A stretch of 53,048 bases of DNA from Desulfamplus sp. GTDB lineage: Bacteria; Desulfobacterota; Desulfobacteria; Desulfobacterales; Desulfobacteraceae. The notes under the pieces were generated by a model, which worked only from the letters and a program-made list of their open reading frames with translations, was not told the origin of the DNA and searched no databases. Numbering within the stretch: the stretch's first letter is position 1; every line of letters begins with the position of its first letter. Location: assembly GCA_015232555.1 (NCBI GenBank), contig JADFZJ010000030.1:1-53048 (forward strand), read 5' to 3'. Below, one piece after another: positions 1 to 28,927 of the stretch. Position numbers and translations under genes: made by a program.

Positions 1-1
1 T

Positions 2-214
2 TGTTCATGGATAAATCAGGTCGAACAATGGTTCAGCATATTTCAAAGAAAAAGATTCAAATTTGCTGATTTCCCGTCAAAGGAGGCTATGAATCAAGCC
101 ATTATGGATTATATAAATGAGTGGAACGCTCATGCACATCCCTTCAACTGGTCAACAAAGTCAGTAGTAAAAGTTATGGCTCATGCTCCTGAACACTTAA
201 AGATTGCAGCATGA
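2..214 (+). pseudogene. IS630-type transposase, C-terminal fragment cut by the window edge
   Basis: Frame 2 is open from the first base to a TGA and encodes about 70 residues. They begin SWINQVEQWFSIFQRKRFK, continue FADFPSKEAM and end NEWNAHAHPFNWSTKS...PEHLKIAA. This is the C-terminal end of IS630/Tc1-type DDE transposases: the glutamate in NQVEQWFS is the third catalytic acidic residue, and the ending resembles the usual WNxxAxPFxWTxK motif. The rest lies outside the window, so it cannot be told whether the gene is intact. It is listed as a fragment because only the tail is visible. Confidence 0.8.
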
Positions 215-522: not shown

Positions 523-1323
523 TTACCAAAGATACAAACTTGATTTTTTATTAAGAATTCTTAATTCAATATATTCAGTACAAGCTGATTGAGCAACACC
601 ATAGCATACATGCAGTGGCAGCAAATGCTCCTCTCTCGGATGGCAATATCTTGCATAGGGAGCATGTTCCCAATTTTCCAATCTGTTAACTCTTTCCGCT
701 TCCTCAATATCCGGGTTTGAACATGTATCAATCAGCCACTGCTCAAATTTTTCATTCATAGTTTTATTATCAGTTGTCTCTTTTTCAAAAAATGCCTTCA
801 TATTATGAAATGAAAAACCTGAACCAATTATCAGCAAGTTATCATAACTTATACTGGATAGAGCATTTCCTATTTTTATATGCTCGGAAGGATTCAGGCT
901 TTTGAGAAGAGATAACTGAATACATGGGATGTCTGCGTTAGGATACATTATTTTAAGAGGCACAAATAATCCGTGATCAAAGCCTCTATGCTCATCCAAT
1001 TTATTTTTTATGCCCCTTTTGCTTAATAATTCTTCTATTTGTCTGGCTAAAAACGGTTCTCCTGGGCATGGATATTTTATACGGTAGGATTCTTCAGGAA
1101 AACCATAATAATCATAAATAAGGGAAGGGGCAGCCGCAGAGGTTATGGTTGTGATTTTCTCTTCCCAGTGGGCACTTATTATAATAATCGCTGATGGTTT
1201 ATTAATTTTTGAAGCTAAATAGTTCAATTTTTCCACCATTTCCTCATGCCCTTTATCACCAAGCAGAGGTAAGGGACCACCTCCATGAGATAAAAATAAT
1301 ACTCTAAGATTTTTATTATTCAT
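523..1323 (-). CDS. LigB/DODA-type extradiol ring-opening dioxygenase (YgiD-like)
   Basis: The 266-residue protein belongs to the class III extradiol dioxygenase superfamily. These enzymes use non-haem iron or zinc to open catechol-like rings; YgiD-type members act on 4,5-DOPA in vitro. Visible metal-site and active-site motifs are SHGGGP (His13), SAHWE (His52), GFDHGLFVPL near residue 115 and HPREEHLLPLHVCYG near 230-240. The length is normal for YgiD. The ATG follows AAGGAGT with good spacing. It stands alone, with the repeat array upstream. An O2-dependent activity would be odd in a strict anaerobe, so the true substrate is unclear. The Memo protein of the AMMECR1-Memo-AmrS group shares this fold, but the motifs here are of the DODA type. 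Confidence 0.85.
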   Translation of the reverse strand: MNNKNLRVLFLSHGGGPLPLLGDKGHEEMVEKLNYLASKINKPSAIIIISAHWEEKITTITSAAAPSLIYDYYGFPEESYRIKYPCPGEPFLARQIEELLSKRGIKNKLDEHRGFDHGLFVPLKIMYPNADIPCIQLSLLKSLNPSEHIKIGNALSSISYDNLLIIGSGFSFHNMKAFFEKETTDNKTMNEKFEQWLIDTCSNPDIEEAERVNRLENWEHAPYARYCHPREEHLLPLHVCYGVAQSACTEYIELRILNKKSSLYLW

Positions 1324-1599
1324 TAAATGGACTCCTTAAAGTCTTGTATGTTACTATGGGTACTACACTCACTACCTTATAGCCATTTATTTTGTAAAAA
1401 TGTCTAATATAGTTTTCCAGAAAAGTATTTTGATTCAACAAACCTTTATTAGTGGAGTATGCAGATATTCTCTATTCTGCCAATAAATTTATACTATGGA
1501 TATTAAAACTCTGAGTATGCAGATATCTGTTTTAAGCATCAAACTTTATTTTATTTTATAAGTATTTAAAAAATAATAATAACAATAAACCGTGTTGAT

Positions 1600-1848
1600 A
1601 TGTTCATAACTACGATAACTATCTTAATTTTATGATAAAAACATATACTAAAAATGTTCATAACTATGTTTATAACGTGTTCATAACTATTGAGTTATGA
1701 ACACACTTTTATAAGATGTTCATAACTCAATAGTTATGAACATACTATGTTCATAACTATGTTCATAACTTAGTCAACTACTTGTATTTTAAGGAAAAAT
1801 GATACACTAAAAATGTTCATAACTTTTGTTTATAACTTTGTTCATAAC
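1600..1848. repeat. Iteron-like array of GTTCATAAC repeats with two hairpins
   Basis: The 9-mer GTTCATAAC starts at 1602, 1656, 1679, 1718, 1749, 1761, 1815 and 1840. It occurs inverted (GTTATGAAC) at 1694 and 1733, and as GTTTATAAC at 1668 and 1828. Several neighbours are 11-13 bp apart, about one helical turn. Forward and inverted copies form two perfect 12-bp-stem, 4-nt-loop hairpins at 1677-1704 and 1716-1743, whose cores are reverse complements of each other. The block 1645-1687 recurs with few changes at 1803-1848. The gap 1324-1866 has no convincing gene. It also holds a 14-bp direct repeat, GAGTATGCAGATAT, at 1455 and 1513. Confidence 0.85.
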
Positions 1849-1866
1849 TTTTTTATTACAGCATAA

Positions 1867-2421
1867 TCAAGACTCTACCCACTCTCTTATTCCTGTAATA
1901 TCAACTTTTTTCCAATTTTCAGATATTCTCTTTTTAATAAAGTTATGAAACAAGATGTCAATAACTTCAAAGAGCCTGTTGTAAAGAAAGACCTTTTCGA
2001 GAACTGCCCCTTCAGTGTCGTCCTCGTTTTCCATTTTTCCAGCAACAGGTGTTTTAAGAGATGTTATCTCCATGCTCTCACCCTTGATGTTGAATCGCCA
2101 CTCATTATCATCAATTCTCAGCACAAGATTCATATCTGTTACAACTCCTCCTTTCTTAAGAGCTGTCTTTCCCTCTTCAAGACCTGCATCATCACCTTTT
2201 ATGGAAATCTTCTCAACAGAGTCATCGCCAAGTGAATTTTCAAGGGCAATGCAGTTGCCTATTTCAAATACAATTGAGTTGCAATCAACTCCAGCCTTTT
2301 CCCAATCAGCTTCTGCTATATTTTTTATATTGATATCATTCTCAATAAGATACCAAAGCCATGTGAGAAACTCATTACCAAGAAATTTATATTTATTATA
2401 ACTTATTGATATATCATGCAT
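1867..2421 (-). CDS. Conserved hypothetical protein coupled to RdgC
   Basis: The 184-residue acidic protein has no catalytic motif that I recognise. Near the N-terminus it carries KFLGNEFLTWLWYLIE, which I associate with proteins encoded beside short RdgC homologues. Its start overlaps the rdgC stop in a TAATG arrangement, indicating translational coupling and probably a shared complex or pathway. E. coli RdgC is one protein of about 300 residues, so this protein may supply what the short RdgC lacks. That is inference. The GTTCATAAC array begins just beyond its stop codon. Confidence 0.7.
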   Translation of the reverse strand: MHDISISYNKYKFLGNEFLTWLWYLIENDINIKNIAEADWEKAGVDCNSIVFEIGNCIALENSLGDDSVEKISIKGDDAGLEEGKTALKKGGVVTDMNLVLRIDDNEWRFNIKGESMEITSLKTPVAGKMENEDDTEGAVLEKVFLYNRLFEVIDILFHNFIKKRISENWKKVDITGIREWVES

Positions 2422-3059
2422 TAGATATCATCTCCCATTACCTTGCCACGGTTGACATTAGCAGGAGCCAAGTTCAAGACCATATCCCGTTCTTCATCAG
2501 AAAACTTTTCAGAACCCTCAATAATTGTGAACGGAAAGAGTCTTATTAGCCTAAGTTTGAATGATTTTGTAAACATAGTTTCAAGCTCTTCATTTGCCGC
2601 TTTCTGGGTTGAGAAGAAGAGAACCTGTTGAGCTTCATGATTCCACAGAACATCATATATATTCGGTGTAGATGGCATCTGACGCATAAGTTTATCTGTC
2701 ACATTCTCCTTTATCTCGGTCTTTTCATTTTTTGAGAGAAACTGCCGCCCCTCCTCTTTAAGTTTCCTTTGAACTTCTATAGAGATATGTTTTTGAATAA
2801 TCTTTGAAGGGACACTTTTCTTGTCTATTCTGAGAGAGAAGAGAAAGAAATCTCCAAATGTAAATGTGAATTTTTCAAAATCAGGATTGAAATTGCTCTC
2901 AAATGGTGTCCATCCCATTGTAATTTCTGCATATTCATCCTCAATTGTGGTGATTGCGTTTTGTTTTAGTCCAGCGTGTATGGTCTCCATGACATTCTCT
3001 TCAATCTTTCCATCTACCCTGTACCTTGCAACAGATACGCTTGATGACAACAAACCCAT
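2421..3059 (-). CDS. rdgC: Short RdgC-like recombination-associated protein
   Basis: The 212-residue product begins MGLLSSSVSVARYRVDG and contains FSLRIDKKSVPSKIIQ, then QRKLKEEGRQFLSKNEKTEI and NHEAQQVLFFST. These match the LRxDxxxVP and RKLxxxEKxxL pattern of the RdgC family. RdgC forms a ring that binds double-stranded DNA and restrains RecA. The protein is about 90 residues shorter than E. coli RdgC. CGGAG lies 9 nt before the ATG. It sits 33 nt downstream of cca on the same strand and overlaps the next gene by one base (TAATG). The assignment rests on motif resemblance only. Confidence 0.72.
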   Translation of the reverse strand: MGLLSSSVSVARYRVDGKIEENVMETIHAGLKQNAITTIEDEYAEITMGWTPFESNFNPDFEKFTFTFGDFFLFSLRIDKKSVPSKIIQKHISIEVQRKLKEEGRQFLSKNEKTEIKENVTDKLMRQMPSTPNIYDVLWNHEAQQVLFFSTQKAANEELETMFTKSFKLRLIRLFPFTIIEGSEKFSDEERDMVLNLAPANVNRGKVMGDDI

Positions 3060-3092
3060 AAATAAATACTCCGGTTTAATTTTAGTTAATGA

Positions 3093-4574
3093 TTATATTG
3101 TAGCCTTTATTGCTGCTAATTGAGGTTTAAGAGAGTTACAGGCAATATTGAGATATTGAATGACAAGTTCTCTTAGTGCCTCAAAATTGTTCAAAGATGG
3201 TTCATCAATTACGCACTCAAACAGATAATTCATAACCCTACCAACCTCGGGACCTGGAGTGATATTGAGAATTTCCATTACATCATGTCCTGAAATGGCA
3301 AGGTCTTTGATAGAGAGTGGCAGTTTCCCACCCTTTAGTTGACCATTTGTAAGCTCGCTCCAAATTTTTCCTACCCTAAGCCTGATATCTGACCTGTTAT
3401 AAGGGTGTTTTGCCAAATTAGCAGCTTTATCAGCAATTCTCATCTGCATAAATGTCTGCCATTTAACATCATGCTCTTTTAAAAACGCTAAAAGCCTTCT
3501 TACAGCCTTTGGCGTAGAATCTGGAGTAAGGGGGCGCATGTGGGTTCTGATTACAGCTTCAATAAATTTAATCTCTTCAATGCTGAATCTTAGATTTTTA
3601 AGATCATAAATTACAGCATCAACCATCTTTTCATGTTCAGGAAATGTTATCTGACCATCTTTTATCTGTGCTGCATCATATTTACCTGCATCGTGAAGAT
3701 ATCCTGCAAGACGTAAAATTGGATTACGAGCAGACAGAGCATCACCTGTGAGAAGACAGTGTTCTAAAACGCTCTCTCCGTGATGAGGTCCACCATCAAG
3801 ATTGTCACAACGGGCAAGAGATGGAAATATCAGCTCAAGAACTCCTGCACTATGAAGAGCCTTGAAAAAGAGAGATGGCTTTTTATGGGACATTGCCTTT
3901 AGAATTTCATACCGTATTCTCTCTGGTGAGACATAGCCATTGATATTAGTATTATAAATTGTAATATTTTTATTGTCAGTATTGCTATTTTTATTGCTGC
4001 TGTATGTAGTTGTAAGATGACGGTACCTAATAATACTATCTAAAGCCAAATCATCAATATTACCGTTAATTAAAGATGCAAATCTGCACGCTCTGACCAT
4101 TCTCAACGGGTCTTCTAATATTCTGTCATCAGGCGAACCTGTAAATCTGATAATCTTGTCTGTAATATCTTTTCTGCCGTCAAAAGGATCAATAAGCATT
4201 CCTGAAAGCGGATCAAAAGCCATGCTGTTAATTGTAATATCTCTACAGGCAAGATCGCATTCAGGAAAATTATCCATATCTGAATCAGAACGGCATGATG
4301 CAACCTCAATGCCGTTCACCATACAGATAGCAAACGCTTTTCCAACTTTTTTTACTCGTTCTCCTGAAAAGATTCTTATAATTTCGTCCGTAGGTGCATT
4401 GGTAAGAATATCAAAATCTGAGGGTTTATGGTCTTGTCCCACCATCACCATATCTCTTACAACACCACCGACAAAAAATGCTTTGAACCCTTCTTTGGCT
4501 AATCTTTTTACAATATCAAGACTTATGTTCTGACTATCAGATATGCTTATTTTCACTGCTCTTGCCAGTTCCAT
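3093..4574 (-). CDS. cca: CCA tRNA nucleotidyltransferase / poly(A) polymerase family, HD domain
   Basis: This class II nucleotidyltransferase adds or repairs the 3' CCA of tRNA; poly(A) polymerase is the close alternative. Visible motifs are FFVGGVVRDMV (residues 33-43), catalytic PSDFDIL (Asp53, Asp55), RDITINSMAFDP, DPLRMVRACRFAS, and an HD domain with YLHDAGK near residue 292 followed by IRTHMRPLTP. The 493 residues exceed the usual 400-450, partly through an Asn/Ser/Thr-rich insert near 186-208 that breaks the link to the VSPERIRYE motif. The ATG overlaps ubiX by 22 nt and lacks a clear ribosome site. A GTG at 4556 would give a GTGA overlap instead. Confidence 0.88.
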   Translation of the reverse strand: MELARAVKISISDSQNISLDIVKRLAKEGFKAFFVGGVVRDMVMVGQDHKPSDFDILTNAPTDEIIRIFSGERVKKVGKAFAICMVNGIEVASCRSDSDMDNFPECDLACRDITINSMAFDPLSGMLIDPFDGRKDITDKIIRFTGSPDDRILEDPLRMVRACRFASLINGNIDDLALDSIIRYRHLTTTYSSNKNSNTDNKNITIYNTNINGYVSPERIRYEILKAMSHKKPSLFFKALHSAGVLELIFPSLARCDNLDGGPHHGESVLEHCLLTGDALSARNPILRLAGYLHDAGKYDAAQIKDGQITFPEHEKMVDAVIYDLKNLRFSIEEIKFIEAVIRTHMRPLTPDSTPKAVRRLLAFLKEHDVKWQTFMQMRIADKAANLAKHPYNRSDIRLRVGKIWSELTNGQLKGGKLPLSIKDLAISGHDVMEILNITPGPEVGRVMNYLFECVIDEPSLNNFEALRELVIQYLNIACNSLKPQLAAIKATI

Positions 4575-5164
4575 CTTTGAACAAGATTATGTTCAAATCC
4601 AAAGTGATCTAAAATTCTTGCAACTACAGTATCGCAAAGCTGCTCAATTGTTGATGGGAATGTGTAGAAAGACGGAGACGGAGGCATAATGGTTGCACCT
4701 GCTCTGCATAATCTTGTCATGTTTTCGAGGTGAATGAGGTTCAATGGGGTCTCACGGGGAAGAAGTATCAAAGGTCGTTTCTCTTTAAGACAGACATCTG
4801 CAGAACGGGTGATAAGATTATCTGCCATGCCTGATGCAATTGCTGCAAGGGTTTTCATAGAACATGGAGCGATTGCCATGCCATTATGTATAAATGATCC
4901 ACTTGCAGGGGCAGCACAAGCCTCATGTTGAGTGAAAACTTCAAGAGTAGAAGATTCATGAAAAACAGCCCCTTCAAGCGTAAGAAAATCTTTAAAAGAG
5001 CTTTGCCCATTAAATATTGTCTCATGTTCTAAAACCCTTAAACCTCCGTCTGAAATAATAACCATTAAATGGCATGGTTGTTCAATCAGTGCCTTTATCA
5101 GCCTTATCCCATAAATCGAACCAGATGCACCGCAGATAGCTACGATATACTTTTTTATATTCAT
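4553..5164 (-). CDS. ubiX: Flavin prenyltransferase UbiX
   Basis: The 203-residue UbiX/Pad1 family enzyme prenylates FMN to make the prenyl-FMN cofactor used by UbiD-type decarboxylases. It shows the N-terminal flavin motif ICGASGSIYGIRL, then IAPCSMKTLAAIASG, SADVCLKEKRPLILLPRETPL and ATIMPPSPSFY, all canonical, and has normal length. It is followed by cca with a short overlap and preceded by the thiolase-like gene and ubiA, suggesting a quinone-related transcription unit. No ubiD partner is present in the window. Confidence 0.93.
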   Translation of the reverse strand: MNIKKYIVAICGASGSIYGIRLIKALIEQPCHLMVIISDGGLRVLEHETIFNGQSSFKDFLTLEGAVFHESSTLEVFTQHEACAAPASGSFIHNGMAIAPCSMKTLAAIASGMADNLITRSADVCLKEKRPLILLPRETPLNLIHLENMTRLCRAGATIMPPSPSFYTFPSTIEQLCDTVVARILDHFGFEHNLVQRWNWQEQ

Positions 5165-5293
5165 TGTGTTTTTACCCTATACCATCATTTGTTAAATTAA
5201 ATAATTTTGCTTTTTCCATCGTTTTTACTCCAAACTGTATTAGCTGTTAGATAAAAACCTCATTATTGCCATTCTCATAACTATTGTTTAACT

Positions 5294-6796
5294 TTATTCA
5301 AGAATAGCCAAATTTTGATCATGAGTATTACTATACTTCAGGATAACTGTTGCTCCTACCTGATTCTGAGACTCTAATAGATAAAATATATCCTTCTGTT
5401 CTGGATTATTTTGTGCGATAAACCTGAGTCCATTCTCCATTTTTCCATATATAATTGCATAAGATGGAGAGCCATCTTTTGAATGAACAACTGTGTATGT
5501 TTCTATAATCCCTCTTCCTGAAGCTTTATCCAGAATATCAACTGGTGGATTTCCAACCTTAGGCTCTTTTTCATCTTCGAGATCATGATATGCAATCTCT
5601 ATCTCATTAGGTTCTGAGCTGTATATCCCTGCGGCATGTTTGTGCATAAACCACCCAAGTGAGGTTACCATCCCATTCCCGACTTTTCCGCTTTCAATGG
5701 CATCTGCAAGAGTTGCCACGGCGTGAAGACTGTAGTTGTTTCCAGGTCCGCCAAAGAAACCGAGACCGCCAGTCAGAGTGAGTGTTCTTGGATCATCATC
5801 ATTAAGTTTGAGCATCTTTTGGGCAATACTTACCGACGAGGGAAAGCAACTGTAAATATCAAAACAGTCAATATCGTCCAATGATAGATTGGATCGAAGA
5901 AGAGCCTTATCAACAGATGCCTTTAAAGGCAGGCTTGAGGTAAAATCTGACTTTTCAATGAGAAAACGCTGTCGATCCTCTGTATATCCTCCGCCGAGAA
6001 AATAGACAGGATTTTTACCTCTTGCTCTGTATTGCTTTGCATTATCTTCTGCCATTAGCAATATGGCTGCCCCCATATCAACACTGACAAGCGGATTCAT
6101 TAATTTTGTATACGGAAATGCTATGAATCTGTTTGATGGAGAGGGAGTTGAAATCTCTTCAATAGTTCGAGGAATATGGTTCCATGAGTTCGTATGGTTT
6201 ACCCCGACTCTGCTGAAATTTGCCCACATTACTCCTATCTTCTCCATATATGGTGTAATCGCAAGCCCTGATTCTGCCCAAAGAGCGGTCTCATAGAGCG
6301 GAAAACCGTGAATTGGCAGTATCATTCCATGACGTTCCTCTGTCTTTGTGGCTCCGATTATATCATCACCATTATAGTCTTCAGGAAAACCCTGAAAAAG
6401 GCGGTTTCCCTGAAGGTTTTTACTCTTATCTCTGTGGTAGTAGGTTTCTGCACCTGCAATGAGAACACTGTCCAGTTCCCCTCGGGCGATCATTCCGGCA
6501 GCCTTGTTAATAAGAGATTGGGGAGAGTTACCGCCGATATTTGATGTCATGAAAAATCGTGGTGACAGACTCATCCTGTCAATAAGAGAGCGGTGAGCGG
6601 CATCGTAATATCTGCTCATCACCTTAACCACCATCACTCCGTCAAGGTTACGCTGTGCATCAAATGAGCCTGTCATCTCAAAGGCTTTGCAAGAGGCTTC
6701 TGCCATGAGTTCAACAGGTTCACGGAGTCTCTCATATGATTCATGTTTTGTCTGGGTAACCTCTCCCCATCCTGCCAGAACAACACGTTTATTCAT
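5294..6796 (-). CDS. Thiolase-like protein (SCP-x/acetyl-CoA acetyltransferase-like) with C-terminal OB-like domain
   Basis: I chose the ATG at 6796 because GGAG lies 7 nt upstream; it gives 500 residues starting MNKRVVLAGWGEVTQTK. A longer reading to 6850 has no ribosome site. The thiolase fold shows in DGVMVVKVM, IARGELDSVLIAGAETYY, FDIYSCFPSSVSIAQ and GGLGFFGGPGNNYSLHAVA, followed by a C-terminal segment with ETYTVVHSKDGSPSYAIIYG. Where SCP-x thiolases carry the nucleophilic Cys, this protein reads SNIGGNSPQSLI with no Cys. It may therefore not be a classical thiolase. It sits between ubiA and ubiX; substrate unknown. Confidence 0.75.
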   Translation of the reverse strand: MNKRVVLAGWGEVTQTKHESYERLREPVELMAEASCKAFEMTGSFDAQRNLDGVMVVKVMSRYYDAAHRSLIDRMSLSPRFFMTSNIGGNSPQSLINKAAGMIARGELDSVLIAGAETYYHRDKSKNLQGNRLFQGFPEDYNGDDIIGATKTEERHGMILPIHGFPLYETALWAESGLAITPYMEKIGVMWANFSRVGVNHTNSWNHIPRTIEEISTPSPSNRFIAFPYTKLMNPLVSVDMGAAILLMAEDNAKQYRARGKNPVYFLGGGYTEDRQRFLIEKSDFTSSLPLKASVDKALLRSNLSLDDIDCFDIYSCFPSSVSIAQKMLKLNDDDPRTLTLTGGLGFFGGPGNNYSLHAVATLADAIESGKVGNGMVTSLGWFMHKHAAGIYSSEPNEIEIAYHDLEDEKEPKVGNPPVDILDKASGRGIIETYTVVHSKDGSPSYAIIYGKMENGLRFIAQNNPEQKDIFYLLESQNQVGATVILKYSNTHDQNLAILE

Positions 6797-6868
6797 CATT
6801 TTTCTCCATTTTCTGGGCATATTTTGATGTTTTTGAGTAGTAATAAGCACTTTAATTTAATCGTATTT

Positions 6869-7765
6869 TTATAATAATCTGATAATTGCCTGTACAACCA
6901 CGCCGATAAACAGCATAACTGAGACAAGGCTGTTTATGTTGAAAAAGGCAATATCAATCTTTTCGAGATTATCAGGTCTTACGATACGATGTTCTGCAAT
7001 CAAAAGCAGACCAATTACAATCAGAAATAGAAAAAAAACGGGGTGCATTCCATAAGTGACGTGCATACACACAAGGAAAATAAAGGTCATAAGATGAAGC
7101 AGTGAGGAAACGATCATTGATTTTACAGCACCAAGTTTTGCAGGCATTGAAAAAAGTTGATTCTCCCTGTCAAAATCAATATCTTGACAGGCGTAAAGAA
7201 TATCAAATCCTGCGATGTAAGTCATCAATGCCAAGGTAAGAAAGGTAACACTCAATGATAAAGAGCCAGTAAGTGCTATCCACGCTCCAGCAGGTGCTAA
7301 GGATATGGCAAACCCAAGATAGAGATGACAATATTTTGTGAACCGTTTTGTCACTGAATAGAATAGAAGAAAAAATAGAACTGGAAAAGAGAGAATAAAG
7401 CAGAGTCGTCCAAGCATTGCAGCAGCGAAGATAAAAAGAGCAGAAGAGCCAGCAACAAAAAGTGCAGCATCTTTGCGGGTTAAAAGCCCTGAAGGAATTT
7501 CACGGATAATAGTTCTGGGATTTTTTGAGTCAATATCAGCATCAGCTATCCTGTTAAAGCCCATTGCAGCGGATCTTGCTCCAACCATAGCCAAAAGAAT
7601 CCAGATTAAATCTGATAGCACAACATCATGATCTCTTGATGCCATGACAACAGCAGATAGGGCAAATGGCAGAGCAAAAATGGTATGAGAAAATTTTATC
7701 ATCCTGCCATATATTAAGATTCTCTGTTGCAAATTAAGAGTGATATTTTTGATACTTAATAGCAT
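6869..7765 (-). CDS. UbiA-family prenyltransferase (4-hydroxybenzoate polyprenyltransferase / MqnP-like)
   Basis: This integral membrane enzyme transfers a polyprenyl chain to an aromatic acid during quinone synthesis. The first Asp-rich motif is NRIADADIDSKNPRT and the second is DILYACQDIDFDRE; several hydrophobic helices follow. KFSHTIFALPFALSAVVMA is typical of the UbiA/MqnP branch that works with UbiX. I prefer the ATG at 7765 (298 residues) over the upstream TTG at 7783 because GGA lies 9 nt before it. Together with ubiX this suggests menaquinone formation, possibly by the futalosine route, but no mqnABCD genes are present. Confidence 0.88.
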   Translation of the reverse strand: MLLSIKNITLNLQQRILIYGRMIKFSHTIFALPFALSAVVMASRDHDVVLSDLIWILLAMVGARSAAMGFNRIADADIDSKNPRTIIREIPSGLLTRKDAALFVAGSSALFIFAAAMLGRLCFILSFPVLFFLLFYSVTKRFTKYCHLYLGFAISLAPAGAWIALTGSLSLSVTFLTLALMTYIAGFDILYACQDIDFDRENQLFSMPAKLGAVKSMIVSSLLHLMTFIFLVCMHVTYGMHPVFFLFLIVIGLLLIAEHRIVRPDNLEKIDIAFFNINSLVSVMLFIGVVVQAIIRLL

Positions 7766-7846
7766 ATTCTCAATTCCAATCAACTGACTGGCAGCAAACT
7801 GTGGGGAATTGTACTTTAAAAATGATTAAAAACGTCATAATTGAAT

Positions 7847-8857
7847 TTAGAAAATCCCATAAAGTTTTGTTCCGCAATCAGGGCATCTGCCATCTGAAGT
7901 TATATGATTTTTTATGTTATACACCACTCTTTGAATCAGAACTCTTCCGCACACATGGCAGAAGGTATTTTCAGAATCAAGCCCAGGAGCATTGCCTGTA
8001 TAGACATAACGAAGTCCAGCATCTTTTCCAGCATCAAAAGCCATCTTTAATGTGGCAATTGGTGTACTTCCCCTATCTGTCATCTGATAGCATGGATGAA
8101 AACGGCTGATGTGCCAAGGGGTTTGAATACCAAGATCATTTGCAATAAATTGTGCCATTGCTCTTATCTCTGATGGCTCATCATTGAGATCAGGTATTAA
8201 AAGAGTAGTAACCTCAACAAGAATCCCAAGAGACTTCATTAAAATGAGATTCTCCTTAATTGGTTCGAGCCGTCCTTTGCACTGTTTTCGATAAAAATTA
8301 TCATTAAAAGCCTTTAGATCAACATTGGCAGCATCAAGATAGGGTGCAACTATCTCAATCACCTTTTTTGACATAAAGCCGTTAGTTACAAATACATTGC
8401 GTAACCCTTTTGAATGGGCAATTTTTGCGGTCTCAAGGGCAAGTTCAAAATAGACAGTTGGTTCTGTGTAGGTGTATGAAATACTTGCACAATCTGAGTT
8501 TATTGCCTGATCCACTATCTTCTCTGGATTTATATCTGCCCCTCTTATGCTCCTGTTCTGATTCATGGGAATCTGGGATATACTGCTATTTTGACAGAAG
8601 GAACATTGAAAATTGCACCCTTCTGTTGCAATAGAGTATGAGGTAGAGCCGGGCAGAAGGTGAAAAATCGGTTTTTTCTCAATTGGATCAATTGCTCTTG
8701 AGATGATTTTTGGATATACTAAAGATATCAGTTCTCCATCACGGTTTTCTCTTACCTGACAGATTCCTCTTTTCCCTGGTTCAATGGTGCAGAAATGGTT
8801 GCATATTCCGCATTTAACCCTTTTATTTTCAAGCTCTTCATATATCAATGTTTTCAT
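7847..8857 (-). CDS. amrS: AmmeMemoRadiSam-type radical SAM enzyme AmrS
   Basis: The 336-residue protein has an N-terminal Cys motif CGICNHFC with a further Cys near residue 33 (RGICQVREN). The radical SAM signature CNFQCSFCQ (Cys80, 84, 87) binds the 4Fe-4S cluster, and HISRFHPCYQM near residue 250 is typical of AmrS, a relative of pyruvate-formate-lyase activating enzyme. Two further CxxC pairs near the C-terminus (CHVCGR, CPDCGTKLYG) look like a zinc ribbon. AmrS genes often sit with AMMECR1 and Memo, but neither is adjacent. It probably opens a minus-strand transcription unit that continues into ubiA. Biochemical role unknown. Confidence 0.9.
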   Translation of the reverse strand: MKTLIYEELENKRVKCGICNHFCTIEPGKRGICQVRENRDGELISLVYPKIISRAIDPIEKKPIFHLLPGSTSYSIATEGCNFQCSFCQNSSISQIPMNQNRSIRGADINPEKIVDQAINSDCASISYTYTEPTVYFELALETAKIAHSKGLRNVFVTNGFMSKKVIEIVAPYLDAANVDLKAFNDNFYRKQCKGRLEPIKENLILMKSLGILVEVTTLLIPDLNDEPSEIRAMAQFIANDLGIQTPWHISRFHPCYQMTDRGSTPIATLKMAFDAGKDAGLRYVYTGNAPGLDSENTFCHVCGRVLIQRVVYNIKNHITSDGRCPDCGTKLYGIF

Positions 8858-8913
8858 GGCTATGGTTTAACTCTTATCCAAATAGTGTGTCTCCAATAAA
8901 AACGATTTCATTC

Positions 8914-8964
8914 TTCTTGTTCAGGAATTTCAATCAACAATAATTGCAGTGAAGCTTCTTATAT
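8914..8964 (+). repeat. Copy 1 of dispersed ~50-bp intergenic repeat
   Basis: It contains TTCAGGAATTTCAATCAACA (8920-8939), then ATAATTGCAGTGAAGCTTCTTATAT. The same order of blocks recurs at 18795, 21095, 29478 (partial), 31053, 31107 and 50659. Consensus halves are TTCAGGAATTTCAATCAACA and ATAATTGCAGCGAAGCTGCT; the second can form a small GCAGC-GAA-GCTGC hairpin. It lies between amrS and the EF-hand membrane-protein gene. Confidence 0.8.
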
Positions 8965-9003
8965 CCTATCACATTACACATGTTTTTCTTTTCAGGTCAA
9001 ACA

Positions 9004-11169
9004 CTAAAACAGCAGACCGCTTTTCCATATAATCAATATCAATCCAATTAATATCAGCAATAGAATATATAATCTCCACGGAGTCTTCTTTTCAGCATAA
9101 GGGTCTGTCATCAGACGGGTTGAACCTGACGGAAGTTTTGCTATTTGGGTGAGTGAGCTACCAAAAGGAATATTGATCTTTGCTCGGCTGTTGACTGCCC
9201 ATCCACATGCGTCTAAAATTGGAGAGATGTTTCGCTGACGAAGTTTCAAAGCAGCAATGATCATTGATGGACCTGAAATAAAGAGAATAAGCCCAATAAT
9301 TGTAAGAGGCATTTGCCACCATTTTAAGCCCATAAAACCTGTAACAACCGCTGCGGCTGCTGTTCCTATCGCCCCAACTGCTAAACCGATAGCAGCAAAA
9401 ATTCCAGCAAACTTGCCGACATCAAATGGAACGGCAGTCGGTTTGCCTTCAACTTTTTTAGTGGTATCAGCTATGAGTGAAGCAGAGCTTGTGTTAACTG
9501 ATTTATCCCGCTCTGATGCAAATTTTTCAATCTGCTCTCTCAGCATACGTGCAAACCGTTTGTAAGGAGACCAAAAAGCCTGACGGATGCTGATAGGATG
9601 CTCGATAATTTTCACTATTGTTGCATTCCAATCTCTGTTTTTGCTGTCATAAAAAATTCCGTTTCTTCCCACCATCAGGTTGTCGGCATCGCCATCTGTA
9701 AAGGCTGCTGCAATATTCATCTTCTCAGGGCACTCTTTTCGTGTACATTCACAGTATGCCAAATAGACCCCGCCCATCTGTGCCAGTGTGCTGTGGGCTG
9801 CCACATCTTTAACCTTGATGCAAAGCTCGCAGCTCCGTCCGTCCAAATAGAGAGTTCCAGCTTGAAATATTCCATTCTTTCCCGGGGTATAAAAATCATA
9901 AAAAGAGACAAAGTTGTTAAGGAGCGTATAAAGATCACGATAGTAATGGATAAGTTTATCTAATGAAGTAATTGAATTAACAGAAGATTCAAGAGATTTG
10001 TCTTTTTCAATCAGCTCTGCAATTTTCTCTTGACTCTTGCTGTCAAGAATCTCCCTGAGTCGCTGCAACCCGAGCTTTTCTACAGGACTCTCTTTTTTGC
10101 TGATTTTCCACGCTTGATACTCAGCAAATTTTTCTTTTATCTGAGTCCACTCCTTTTCAGACAGACTCTCTTTAGTCTCTCCAAACAGAGGACGCACTAC
10201 CGTATCACGGAAAGCCAAAAGAGCCTTTGCCCATGCAGGATTAACACTTCCGATCAATGGAAGGTCTGCTTGCGGTTCGATTGTAGCCAATGGAAACGCT
10301 GCTATCTCCTCAGTTTCAGCAGATATATTTTTTAATGAAATATCTTCATATCTTACCTGTGCAGGATTTAGTAACGAAGCAGCATTTGGGTCAAATGCTG
10401 CCAAACTGCAACGGGTAAAATAATCATCCGCCTTTAACTCAACTGCTTCAAATGAGGTAGCCGCAGCAGATGTCATCTCTCCTAATGGAAAAAAACCTGC
10501 ATTTTCCACTTCAGCTTGACGCTGCCAGTCAGAATAGTCGCGTGCCTCGTTGAAAAAAAGATCAGCCTTCTCTTTTGTAATGCCTGGAAGACCGCTTCTG
10601 TCCTGCTCTGACCCCATACACTCCATGATCTCCTCAATCAGTTTTTTGACAGATTCGTCATCAGAAGCCATGGCAGGTATAATGCCGTCACCATTAAATT
10701 TGGTGTTGGCAAAAATTTCAACAGTATCTGCTGTATCCTCAAGAGATATGCTTTCTGCACCAGCTTTGCCTCTGTTTGCTAAAATCTCTTTTGCACAGGC
10801 AAGAATATTTTTACCTTCTGGAGTTTCATCATTGATGGCTGACAAGGGTAAAAGCTCATTAACTCGAGAGAGAGCACTCGGATTTTTAATCAGGGATAAT
10901 GTCCAGTTAATAGCCTCAATAATTTCTGGTGCCCGAATCCTGCTGTCTCCGTCTTTATCCATGTATGCAAGGGTAGTAGCGTCAAATTCAAGTCCTTCAG
11001 TTGGGCATCCAAGAGCAGCCCAAAGTTTCTGATCAAGCTCTCCTATGGATTGTATATCGTCCCCTGTTGTAATCAGAACATGATCGAATCCACCAACCCG
11101 AACAAAACGCCATTTATGCTCTCCATCATCTTTTTTTACTGCTGTATCTTCATTTCCGTTAAGTGTCAT
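9004..11169 (-). CDS. Large membrane-anchored protein with an EF-hand-like motif, function unknown
   Basis: The ATG at 11169 follows AGGAG by 10 nt and gives 721 residues; the longer reading to 11196 has no ribosome site. I do not recognise the family. Near residues 67-80 YMDKDGDSRIRAPEII fits the calcium-binding EF-hand loop DxDxDxxIxxxE. The middle is long, charged and helical, and a segment near 440-500 has several Cys (RSCELCIKV, AYCECTRKECPEK). Membrane segments lie near 584-644 (a Gly/Ala-rich pair) and 697-721 at the extreme C-terminus. A tail-anchored sensor or scaffold is possible, but this is inference. A perfect palindrome lies about 35 bp before the start. Confidence 0.75.
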   Translation of the reverse strand: MTLNGNEDTAVKKDDGEHKWRFVRVGGFDHVLITTGDDIQSIGELDQKLWAALGCPTEGLEFDATTLAYMDKDGDSRIRAPEIIEAINWTLSLIKNPSALSRVNELLPLSAINDETPEGKNILACAKEILANRGKAGAESISLEDTADTVEIFANTKFNGDGIIPAMASDDESVKKLIEEIMECMGSEQDRSGLPGITKEKADLFFNEARDYSDWQRQAEVENAGFFPLGEMTSAAATSFEAVELKADDYFTRCSLAAFDPNAASLLNPAQVRYEDISLKNISAETEEIAAFPLATIEPQADLPLIGSVNPAWAKALLAFRDTVVRPLFGETKESLSEKEWTQIKEKFAEYQAWKISKKESPVEKLGLQRLREILDSKSQEKIAELIEKDKSLESSVNSITSLDKLIHYYRDLYTLLNNFVSFYDFYTPGKNGIFQAGTLYLDGRSCELCIKVKDVAAHSTLAQMGGVYLAYCECTRKECPEKMNIAAAFTDGDADNLMVGRNGIFYDSKNRDWNATIVKIIEHPISIRQAFWSPYKRFARMLREQIEKFASERDKSVNTSSASLIADTTKKVEGKPTAVPFDVGKFAGIFAAIGLAVGAIGTAAAAVVTGFMGLKWWQMPLTIIGLILFISGPSMIIAALKLRQRNISPILDACGWAVNSRAKINIPFGSSLTQIAKLPSGSTRLMTDPYAEKKTPWRLYILLLILIGLILIIWKSGLLF

Positions 11170-11202
11170 TATTTCCAATCTCCTTATTTTTTTCAATTTG
11201 AG

Positions 11203-11226
11203 TTTTGTTAATTTAAATTAACAAAA
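11203..11226. promoter_or_regulatory. 24-bp perfect palindrome upstream of the EF-hand protein gene
   Basis: Each half reads TTTTGTTAATTT, giving full dyad symmetry 34 bp before the ATG at 11169, in the probable promoter region. This suits an operator for a dimeric repressor, although AT-rich DNA raises the chance rate. The rest of the gap to 11536 is very AT-rich. AACAAAATATT occurs at 11219 and again near 11270. No other structure is evident there. Confidence 0.5.
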
Positions 11227-11536
11227 TATTCCTTTATTTCTTCATATTTAAAATAGTTATTGTGGTGTTTAACAAAATATTTTCAGCATTTTATAATCAG
11301 AATTATCAGAATCAATTGGTTGGGAAATGTTATTAACATATACAGTTTTTAAATCAAGTAAAAAAAGATGCTATTATTAGTGTGATCAACGCTTATATTT
11401 AAGAACATAATGACATATAGCTGAAGACGTGTTAATTTTAATTATTTAGAATGTTAATAAAAAAATATCTCCTATGGATTTTGCATTTTGACAAATGCAA
11501 AGTGAGATTATAATTATTTTGGAGTATTATATTAAA

Positions 11537-12439
11537 ATGCAGACCCAAGATTATTACAAAATACTTGATATTGATAAAAATGCCACGCCACCTGAAATCA
11601 AAAAAGCCTATAAAAATCTTGCCGTTAAATACCATCCTGACAGAAATCCTGATGATACACAAGCATCTGAAAAAATGGCTGCCCTTAATGAAGCTTATGC
11701 AGTTCTCTCAAATCCAGATAAAAAGAGAGAGTATGATATGTTACGGGAACGATTTGGCGAAGATGCTGCTGGAAGATTCAGGCAGAACAACAGTTATGAT
11801 GATATTTTGAGAAACTCTGATCTTGAAAAAATTTTTCAGGAGATTGCAGAGGGTTTTGGAATAAGAGGATTGAATGAGCTGTTCAGTAATGTAAATATCA
11901 ACGCAAAAAGCGGAACTTTTGGTAATGAAGGAGTTCATGGCGGATTTTTCTTTTTTGGTACATTTGGACAGAATCTACAAGGTGGACGCTCTGGCTATGA
12001 CGATGAGTTAGCTAAATTAAAGCCCCACCAGAAAGTTGTACGTGAAATTGGTGGGAAAATTGCGAAAAAACTGGTCAATAAGCTGCTGAATGAAAGTATG
12101 AAAAAACTTAATATCTCTAATGATTCAGATACTATAAACACCAAAAGCCGAATGGATGCTAAAAGCAGACCAGAGACCGTAAACAAAATGGACATATACG
12201 ACACTATCACACTATCTCCTTTACATGCAAAAAAGGGTGGTCCCTATGCCTATTACGATAAGCAAAACGATAAAAAGCTAGTTATTAAAATTCCTGAAAA
12301 TATCCCAAATGGTCATAAAATAAGGTTAAAAGGTGCAGGAATGAAAAATTCTATAACAGGAGAAAATGGAGATCTGTTTTTAATAATTAATGTAAAAAAC
12401 GATATGCTATCAAAAATAAAAAATTTTTTTCTAAAATAA
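11537..12439 (+). CDS. J-domain co-chaperone, DnaJ-like without zinc finger
   Basis: Reading from the ATG at 11537 gives 300 residues starting MQTQDYYKILDIDKNATPPE. A J domain covers residues 1-65 with the HPD tripeptide in KYHPDRNPDD, so it should stimulate an Hsp70 ATPase. A Gly/Phe-rich stretch follows (HGGFFFFGTFGQNLQGG). There are no CxxCxGxG zinc-finger repeats. Only one C-terminal substrate-binding domain remains (ITLSPLHAKKGG...LVIKIPENIPNGHKIRLKG), so it is a shortened type-B form. A low-complexity stretch with repeated KSR sits before that domain. GGAG lies 12 nt before the start, which is long. The stress-protein gene follows closely. Confidence 0.88.
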   Translation: MQTQDYYKILDIDKNATPPEIKKAYKNLAVKYHPDRNPDDTQASEKMAALNEAYAVLSNPDKKREYDMLRERFGEDAAGRFRQNNSYDDILRNSDLEKIFQEIAEGFGIRGLNELFSNVNINAKSGTFGNEGVHGGFFFFGTFGQNLQGGRSGYDDELAKLKPHQKVVREIGGKIAKKLVNKLLNESMKKLNISNDSDTINTKSRMDAKSRPETVNKMDIYDTITLSPLHAKKGGPYAYYDKQNDKKLVIKIPENIPNGHKIRLKGAGMKNSITGENGDLFLIINVKNDMLSKIKNFFLK

Positions 12440-27952: not shown

Positions 27953-28927
27953 TTAACGAAATTTCTGTTCAGGACTTACACCTTCATCAAGAATAATCGC
28001 CTCAACCCTGCGGTTTTGCTGTCTGCCTGCTTCTGTGTCATTGCCTGCAATTGGATACTGCTCACCATACCCTTTTGTGATCATCCTCTCACTATCAATA
28101 CCTCGCTCCATCAATGCTGAAAATACTGCAATTGCCCTCTGATTGGAAAGACCAAGGTTGTAGGAATCGCTTCCTCTGCTGTCTGTATGTCCCTCAATCA
28201 GCATCTTTCTTTTAGGGTATTTTTTCAAAAAATTTGCCAACTTGTCAGTTATCAGCAGTCCGCCTTGAAGAAGCCTTGATTTATTAACCTCAAATAAAAT
28301 GTTGCCAAGAGTTACCACAGCACCTCTGTCTGTCATTTCAGCGTGCAGCTCTGCAAGTTCTTTTTCAAGCTGCAATTTCTGTGCAAGTGCGGCTTCTGCT
28401 TCAAGTCTTGATTTTTCAGCCGCTCGCATCATCTCCTCTGAATGCTGTTTTGCAAGCTCTGCCTCTCGTGCTTTCTGTTCAGCCTCACGAGCTTTTTGTT
28501 CAGCAGCAGCACGGGCAGCATCAGATTCTTGCTCTCTTGCCTTTAGCAAAATTTTATCTTTGCTGACGCTCAACTCGGAAATTGCTGTTTCAGATTTTTT
28601 GCTTTCAGACAGCAAAACAGCAAGTTCAGCTTTTCGTTCAGCAAGATAAGAAAGATGTTCTGTCTCTGCCCTGTCTCTTGCCCGTGCTGCTCGTTCCGCT
28701 TTGTCCAATGCCTGTTTAGCATCGTATAGTGCAACTGGTGCATTAGATGCAACTTCTGGAGTTATTGAGGCATTTTGATATGCCTCTCTTGCTCTTTCAA
28801 GAGCCGTGTTTTTAATTGGACCAGATGCACAGCCGTTGATTATAAGCAGTGCGGAGATGATTATAAATAGTGAGGTTTTATAGCGTATTAAGCAAATTTG
28901 TTTCTTGTTTTTGTTGTATGTATTCAT
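27953..28927 (-). CDS. Lipoprotein with DUF4398-like N-terminus and OmpA peptidoglycan-binding domain
   Basis: The signal peptide has lipobox IINGCAS. A helical region follows with alanine/arginine-rich repeats (ALYDAKQALDKAERAARARD, then EQKAREAEQKAREAE), probably a coiled coil. The C-terminal OmpA domain has LIEGHTDSRGSDSYNLGLSNQRA and ERMITKGYGEQYPIAGNDT, the peptidoglycan-binding motifs. At 324 residues it fits OmpA/DUF4398 proteins of Desulfobacterota. It should be anchored in the outer membrane and bind the cell wall. It lies 11 nt downstream of another DUF4398 lipoprotein gene, likely as an operon. Confidence 0.9.
   Translation of the reverse strand: MNTYNKNKKQICLIRYKTSLFIIISALLIINGCASGPIKNTALERAREAYQNASITPEVASNAPVALYDAKQALDKAERAARARDRAETEHLSYLAERKAELAVLLSESKKSETAISELSVSKDKILLKAREQESDAARAAAEQKAREAEQKAREAELAKQHSEEMMRAAEKSRLEAEAALAQKLQLEKELAELHAEMTDRGAVVTLGNILFEVNKSRLLQGGLLITDKLANFLKKYPKRKMLIEGHTDSRGSDSYNLGLSNQRAIAVFSALMERGIDSERMITKGYGEQYPIAGNDTEAGRQQNRRVEAIILDEGVSPEQKFR

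Follow-up and report, generated by a model that had tools for sequence, protein, structure and literature searches.

The chromosomal origin of Escherichia coli, oriC, is a cluster of DnaA boxes with an A+T-rich side at which the duplex is unwound, and dnaA does not adjoin it. Thermotoga maritima uses an oriC box which differs from the one described here, and its DnaA also has altered contact residues (structure 2z4r reads NRSHPVV), but these are other residues than those altered in the protein discussed below. The published basal unwinding system, the BUS of Bacillus subtilis-type oriC, consists of DnaA-trios, a spacer of about 4 bp, and a weak and a strong DnaA box in tandem, with 10–13 bp between the trios and the better box (PMC8287927). 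The standard DnaA box consensus is given as TTWTNCACA (PMC7561715), and the epsilonproteobacterial oriC has a class-specific box with a TTCAC core and flanks dnaA (PMC5043019).

Here we analyse an array of 9-mer repeats in a window of 53,048 nucleotides (contig JADFZJ010000030.1) from a Desulfamplus sp. genome. The source bacterium is a relative of the magnetotactic sulfate reducers. A sequence-only reading of the window had listed chromosome organisation, partition, replication, recombination and a multi-site operator as possible roles for the array; from this list we single out replication, and consider that the array is very probably oriC, the chromosomal origin of replication, in a Desulfamplus-like member of the Desulfobacterales, with putative DnaA boxes. 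The features are listed here from left to right, where box means a putative DnaA box throughout.

1545..1592, + strand: A+T-rich stretch (90%), proposed duplex-unwinding element (from composition and alignment)
1571..1588, + strand: six DnaA-trio-like repeats, 3'-AAT-AAC-AAT-AAT-AAT-AAA-5' outward from the box
1589–1592: 4-bp spacer ACCG between the trios and the weak box
1593..1601, + strand: weak proximal box TGTTGATAT, in tandem with the box at 1601
1601..1609, + strand: box of TTATGAACA type, the strong box in the proposed module, with 12 bp between it and the trios
1599..1665, + strand: block of a box, a 45-bp spacer with conserved AACTA and CTAAAAAT, and a second box; box starts 54 bp apart
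1655..1663, + strand: box
1667..1675, + strand: variant box TGTTTATAA
1678..1703: inverted box pair (1678–1686 on + and 1695–1703 on −), left arm of the 26-bp palindrome
1717..1742: inverted box pair (1717–1725 on + and 1734–1742 on −), right arm of the 26-bp palindrome
1748..1768, + strand: two tandem boxes, 12 bp apart
1758..1824, + strand: diverged second copy of the 1599–1665 block (79% alike), without trios
1814..1847, + strand: three tandem boxes (1814, 1827 variant, and 1839)
1867..2421, − strand: p184, the usual neighbour of the proposed origin
2421..3059, − strand: RdgC-like protein, 212 aa

Like E. coli oriC, the locus has a box cluster and an A+T-rich side and lies away from dnaA; unlike it, none of the 12 boxes is of the exact E. 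coli type and many are near-identical to one another. With the B. subtilis-type origin it shares the trios, the spacer of about 4 bp and the weak and strong tandem boxes, and the 12 bp from trios to strong box falls within the published range, but the box is TTATGAACA rather than TTATCCACA, inverted pairs form a 26-bp palindrome, and no dnaA adjoins it (PMC8287927). The epsilonproteobacterial origin resembles it in having a box particular to its class, but with another core sequence and with dnaA, rather than rdgC and p184, as the neighbour (PMC5043019).

The repeat array and its proposed unwinding module

Ten exact copies of GTTCATAAC are found in 247 bp (1602–1848), compared with 0.44 expected for the whole 53-kb window, and ten copies were reached in none of 100 shuffles of the window. 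Eight are forward (+ strand; 1602, 1656, 1679, 1718, 1749, 1761, 1815 and 1840) and two inverted (− strand; 1694 and 1733), and there are two one-base variants, GTTTATAAC (1668 and 1828), so that our recount agrees with the sequence-only reading. Since T precedes all 12 sites, we take the repeat unit to be TGTTCATAAC. There are 12 DnaA-box-like sites with no more than one mismatch to TTATGAACA in 1601–1847, and position 6 is A in each of them instead of the standard C, making this a variant box. We infer that these repeats are DnaA boxes, atypical in sequence, which DnaA would bind. No open reading frame of at least 80 aa overlaps the box cluster (1601–1847), and there was no Rfam match above the gathering score and no tRNA. 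The array sits 1.6 kb from the contig end; window positions 1–213, at the contig edge, resemble the end of an IS transposase by eye.

It had been suggested that the 9-mer should be counted genome-wide and in relatives. In the source genome (G000; 3,818,984 bases; other G-numbers are genomes of relatives, in the main draft assemblies), GTTCATAAC occurs 53 times, 10 times in the array and 43 times elsewhere, compared with 57 for the reversed control, and it is not dense outside the array, where none of the six same-direction close pairs are found. Paired copies occur in four of 39 genomes (own included), all of the same genus and each with one array at one locus (G000, G004, G007 and G009).

The left side of the array has the anatomy of an unwinding module, with six NAN trios separated from the weak box by 4 bp and from the strong box by 12 bp. 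The published rule calls for a box with no more than two mismatches to TTATCCACA and, no further than 16 bp from it, at least three NAN trios (PMC8287927), and the window conforms to it with a strong box which has two mismatches. Under a stricter trio rule, (G/A)A(T/A), the run of trios in the window is interrupted by AAC, leaving a 10-bp spacer to the weak box, while the 4/12 spacing is retained under this rule in G004, G009, G014, G022 and G006 (nTSbin21). The strict rule found matches at six of 30 rdgC loci (G000, G009, G014, G018, G021 and G022) and at the G004 array, and none in 2,175,870 bp taken from elsewhere in the group, a set that excluded the eight of 119 stretches with an array or rdgC; G007 fails because one trio differs.

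A 31-letter module pattern, which like the strict-trio rule and the box-cluster pattern used below was chosen with the sequences already known and with kinship ignored, so that the contrasts with background are descriptive, was found in exactly one place each in 18 of 86 family genomes (G000 included) and was absent in its exact form from the other 68; the reversed control gave none in all 86. Fifteen of the 18 places adjoin p184, the other three being those of G004, G007 and G018, the last of them on the rdgC contig at a distance of 10 kb from the gene. Within the genus, five of ten genomes have the exact pattern and G001 a diverged form (G002, G003, G005 and G008 are 63–74% complete). In addition to its pattern match G018 has one looser module, and contig C363 of this genome thus carries two module-like places 10 kb apart (18886 and near 28165), one of which is at rdgC.

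To the right of the module, the twin hairpins noticed earlier are both present with cores that are reverse complements of each other, having 12-bp stems and 4-base loops (1677–1688/1693–1704 and 1716–1727/1732–1743). Taken together they form one perfect 26-bp inverted repeat (1678–1703 with 1717–1742, 13 bases between), which is the principal secondary structure of this strand (z −8.7). The reported duplication of a block was also borne out, but its length is 67 bp (1599–1665 and 1758–1824) and not about 43 bp. The same twin geometry, with box starts 17 bp apart and pairs 39 bp apart, is seen in G029, from another family, and in HSG9 and GMC6; G009 has one altered box and a distance of 40 bp from pair to pair, and G006 retains a single pair. 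Mutually reverse-complementary cores, of three different sequences in all, are found in the window, G004, G007, G009 and HSG9, and not in G029 and GMC6. The step of 54 bp from first to second box occurs twice in the window and again in G004, G007, G009, G006 and a plasmid of Desulfosarcina sp. BuS5, and this fixed distance suggests a segment that could be bent or looped. DnaA may assemble on the palindrome as opposed pairs; the symmetry of the palindrome may also have come from template switching at inverted repeats.

Conservation of the array and the rdgC neighbourhood

Homologous DNA of about 230 bp (1545–1771) was found in G007 (87% identical), G009 and G004 (82–83%) and G001 (72.5%), and position 1545, where blastn homology to G009 and G007 begins, is the left limit of the DNA conserved in relatives. 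The array is present in close relatives, although not in all. A looser pair pattern was found in eight of 389 genomes of the order, of which four outside the genus hold single pairs that we read as unrelated to the array. A hairpin-pattern scan of named genomes returned 32 stretches, nine of them from Desulfobacterota, including four Desulfamplus MAGs; the other 23 are mostly from Clostridia and the like, and the one inspected (L321) resembles an unrelated hairpin.

In the window the array lies at the 3' end of p184, and so beyond the 3' end of the RdgC pair as first placed. The 212-aa protein matches the Pfam RdgC profile (E 1.3e-11) over positions 8–157 of 298, which is the N-terminal half only. 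Sequence searches with p184 (Pfam, NCBIfam and solved structures) gave nothing convincing, and its predicted fold (pLDDT 84) has a single match at E < 0.001, E. coli RdgC (2owl; E 3.8e-4). On this predicted structure p184 is probably the other half of a split RdgC, and RdgC may be split across two genes in the window (1867–3059).

Among the relatives, rdgC is present in 30 of 39 genomes (own included) and p184 adjoins it in 29 of 30 rdgC loci; 24 of the 30 are full-length (3.5 kb). At least four boxes in 300 bp were found at eight of the 24 full-length loci (five of 19 without the genus) compared with one of 543 background segments, again a descriptive contrast, and the box cluster is absent from the other 16. 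Inverted box pairs with the 17-bp step number 10 in 102 kb, at seven of 30 rdgC loci, compared with one in 1.95 Mb. In G029, G037, G038, G024 and G035 the boxes are found 5' of rdgC, so that their side varies. The association with rdgC is real and extends outside the genus, but it is not obligatory. The array adjoins p184 and rdgC in G000, G009 and G001, and in G004 and G007 (L078 and L079) it is found beside a gene read by eye as hemerythrin, with rdgC on another contig that has no box cluster; in the stretch examined, neither these two genomes nor strain HSG9 have rdgC next to the array. Judging from these arrangements, the array and rdgC became parted within the genus, by inversion or movement.

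These changes of neighbour bear on the suggestion that the array is a multi-site operator for nearby genes (a LigB-type dioxygenase, p184 and rdgC, or the G004/G007 gene). While the sites are non-coding and helically spaced, as might be expected of an operator, the same array is found beside different genes across genomes and in the window it lies at the 3' end of p184, and we consider this explanation extremely improbable.

They also bear on whether the array belongs to a mobile element or plasmid lodged in the chromosome, as its replication origin (iterons) or as one of its ends (such as that of a Tn7-like transposon). A similar array is found on the 109-kb BuS5 plasmid (NZ_CP087953.1 near 53420; L077 9940–10130; E 1e-4, 74%), where it is accompanied by trio-like repeats, the neighbours differ in G004 and G007, and one end of the array starts with TGTTGATA, which we take to be reminiscent of Tn7-like transposon ends. 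Nevertheless, the module occupies one place per genome in the 18 genomes, 15 of which share the p184 flank, and no Rep or transposase family was found in ten neighbouring open reading frames (523–12439; two matched nothing), making a mobile element highly improbable. The Tn7-like end was rejected, as TGTTGATA is the weak box of the conserved unwinding module and no matching far end was seen by eye. No Rep gene is listed in the (incomplete) gene table of the BuS5 plasmid, which may itself replicate from a chromosome-type origin. A phage origin was also considered and rejected: a distant phage search was weak (best E 0.3 among 20 of 162 matches), and when 60 viral stretches with paired 9-mers plus ten other loci were ranked by site density, the best 14 (nine viral) were other box clusters and no copy of the array.

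GC skew and origin-near genes

In G036 (400 of 550 kb) and G035 (whole 387-kb contig) cumulative GC skew reaches its minimum 2 bp from the 3' end of rdgC, and in G038 (whole 153-kb contig) 574 bp from it, inside the gene; these represent three families other than that of the window. In the sister species G009 the minimum lies 1.4 kb from the array (whole 67-kb contig). These four of eight contigs have their skew switch no more than 1.5 kb from rdgC or the array. In others the minimum is located away from rdgC, by 22 kb in G031 (180 of 295 kb) and 36 kb in G033 (60-kb end piece), or away from the array, by 17.6 kb in G007:C1 and 63 kb in G004:C189, and G007 has no skew switch at rdgC either. 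The minimum for the window is at 11243, which is 9.5 kb from the array, itself close to the contig end. In the genus of the window GC skew is weak and tracks gene direction, and this was unchanged by third-codon-position correction. Of twenty sampled stretches of the closed G033 genome, most of those in the first half had positive skew and most of those in the second had negative skew, indicating a switch close to where the record starts, at 36 kb from rdgC, and sampling of the closed G023 genome gave no clear skew switch.

The gene rpmH is usually found near the origin. It lies 10 kb from rdgC in G036, 24 kb in G038, 30 kb in G035, 54 kb in G033 and 93 kb in G023, and on a contig other than that of rdgC in the remaining three of eight genomes searched. 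In the closed G033 genome dnaA and parB are about 1.2 Mb from rdgC, in the closed G023 genome dnaA is 1.6 Mb and parB matches are 0.6–1.0 Mb away, and in G036 parB is 93 kb away. We conclude that several families probably have their origin region around rdgC, although for some of the genomes skew gives no signal or points elsewhere.

A probable origin-near location would suit a partition centre (parS) or another chromosome-organisation site, but the sole ParB match of G000 is on another contig (C49) and the sites are unlike the parS palindrome, and we give this reading almost no credence. A more serious rival is that the array is a DnaA-titration or regulatory site which holds many boxes while the true origin is found elsewhere, of the sort exemplified by datA and DARS. 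This would accommodate the G004 and G007 arrays, which are apart from rdgC and unmarked by skew, as well as the distance between the array and the skew minimum in the window. It sits poorly with the conserved trio–spacer–box module, with the skew minima that fall at rdgC in three further families and close to the array of G009, and with the rest of G000, which holds only one pair of the TTATSAACA pattern outside the array (C73:25072) and no tandem TTATNCACA pair. We therefore regard titration as quite improbable and retain the origin as the preferred explanation.

The initiator protein and a model for initiation

G000 has one DnaA match, located on contig C23. Its base-reading helix has RYHAT where B. 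subtilis DnaA (8btg) has RDHTT, and the preceding helix has K where the Bacillus protein has P. The region reads YHAT in 27 of the 28 relatives' loci that gave it and YHTT in G022 (33 genomes were matched and 30 loci examined, with G005, G007 and G031 having no locus; G033 gave no region, and the G012 row was excluded as being in the wrong frame). D433, T435 and P423 (E. coli numbering) are named as contacts in PMC7561715, D433 and T435 being base contacts, and box differences in epsilonproteobacteria are ascribed in PMC5043019 to changes where helix 5 of DnaA domain IV begins. The altered contact residues of the G000 protein could likewise account for TTATGAACA. An inverted pair in G037 has the standard TTATCCACA as one of its arms. 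We also note that G010, G024, G026, G035, G036 and G037 each have at least two extra weaker matches to the DnaA C-terminal domain.

We propose that DnaA encoded on contig C23 would occupy the twelve TTATGAACA-type boxes, and that a DnaA filament would spread from the tandem pair at 1593–1609 onto the single-stranded trios at 1571–1588. The A+T-rich stretch at 1545–1592 would then open and the helicase be loaded, while the spacer blocks and inverted box pairs to the right would hold more DnaA and shape or time the complex. A bolder version holds that the Desulfobacterales have re-tooled initiation, in that the base-reading residues of DnaA changed and the box followed to TTWTGAACA, the palindrome of two inverted pairs, whose symmetry is maintained by matched changes in both cores, is a separate DnaA-assembly or cruciform element, and the adjoining split RdgC acts at the origin; we think this combination rather unlikely and offer it tentatively.

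We regard the array as a known kind of element, an origin, in an unusual form, with a non-standard box, a palindrome of opposed boxes, rdgC and p184 as the usual neighbour, and a change of neighbour within a genus. No paper treating TTATGAACA together with DnaA was found among the open-access papers searched, and none of the matches listed there dealt with a Desulfobacterales oriC or with rdgC and an origin. The array provides a concrete and testable origin for an order of environmental bacteria with non-consensus boxes. It would also be a natural example of an initiator and its site having been altered together, and of an origin whose neighbours have changed inside one genus.
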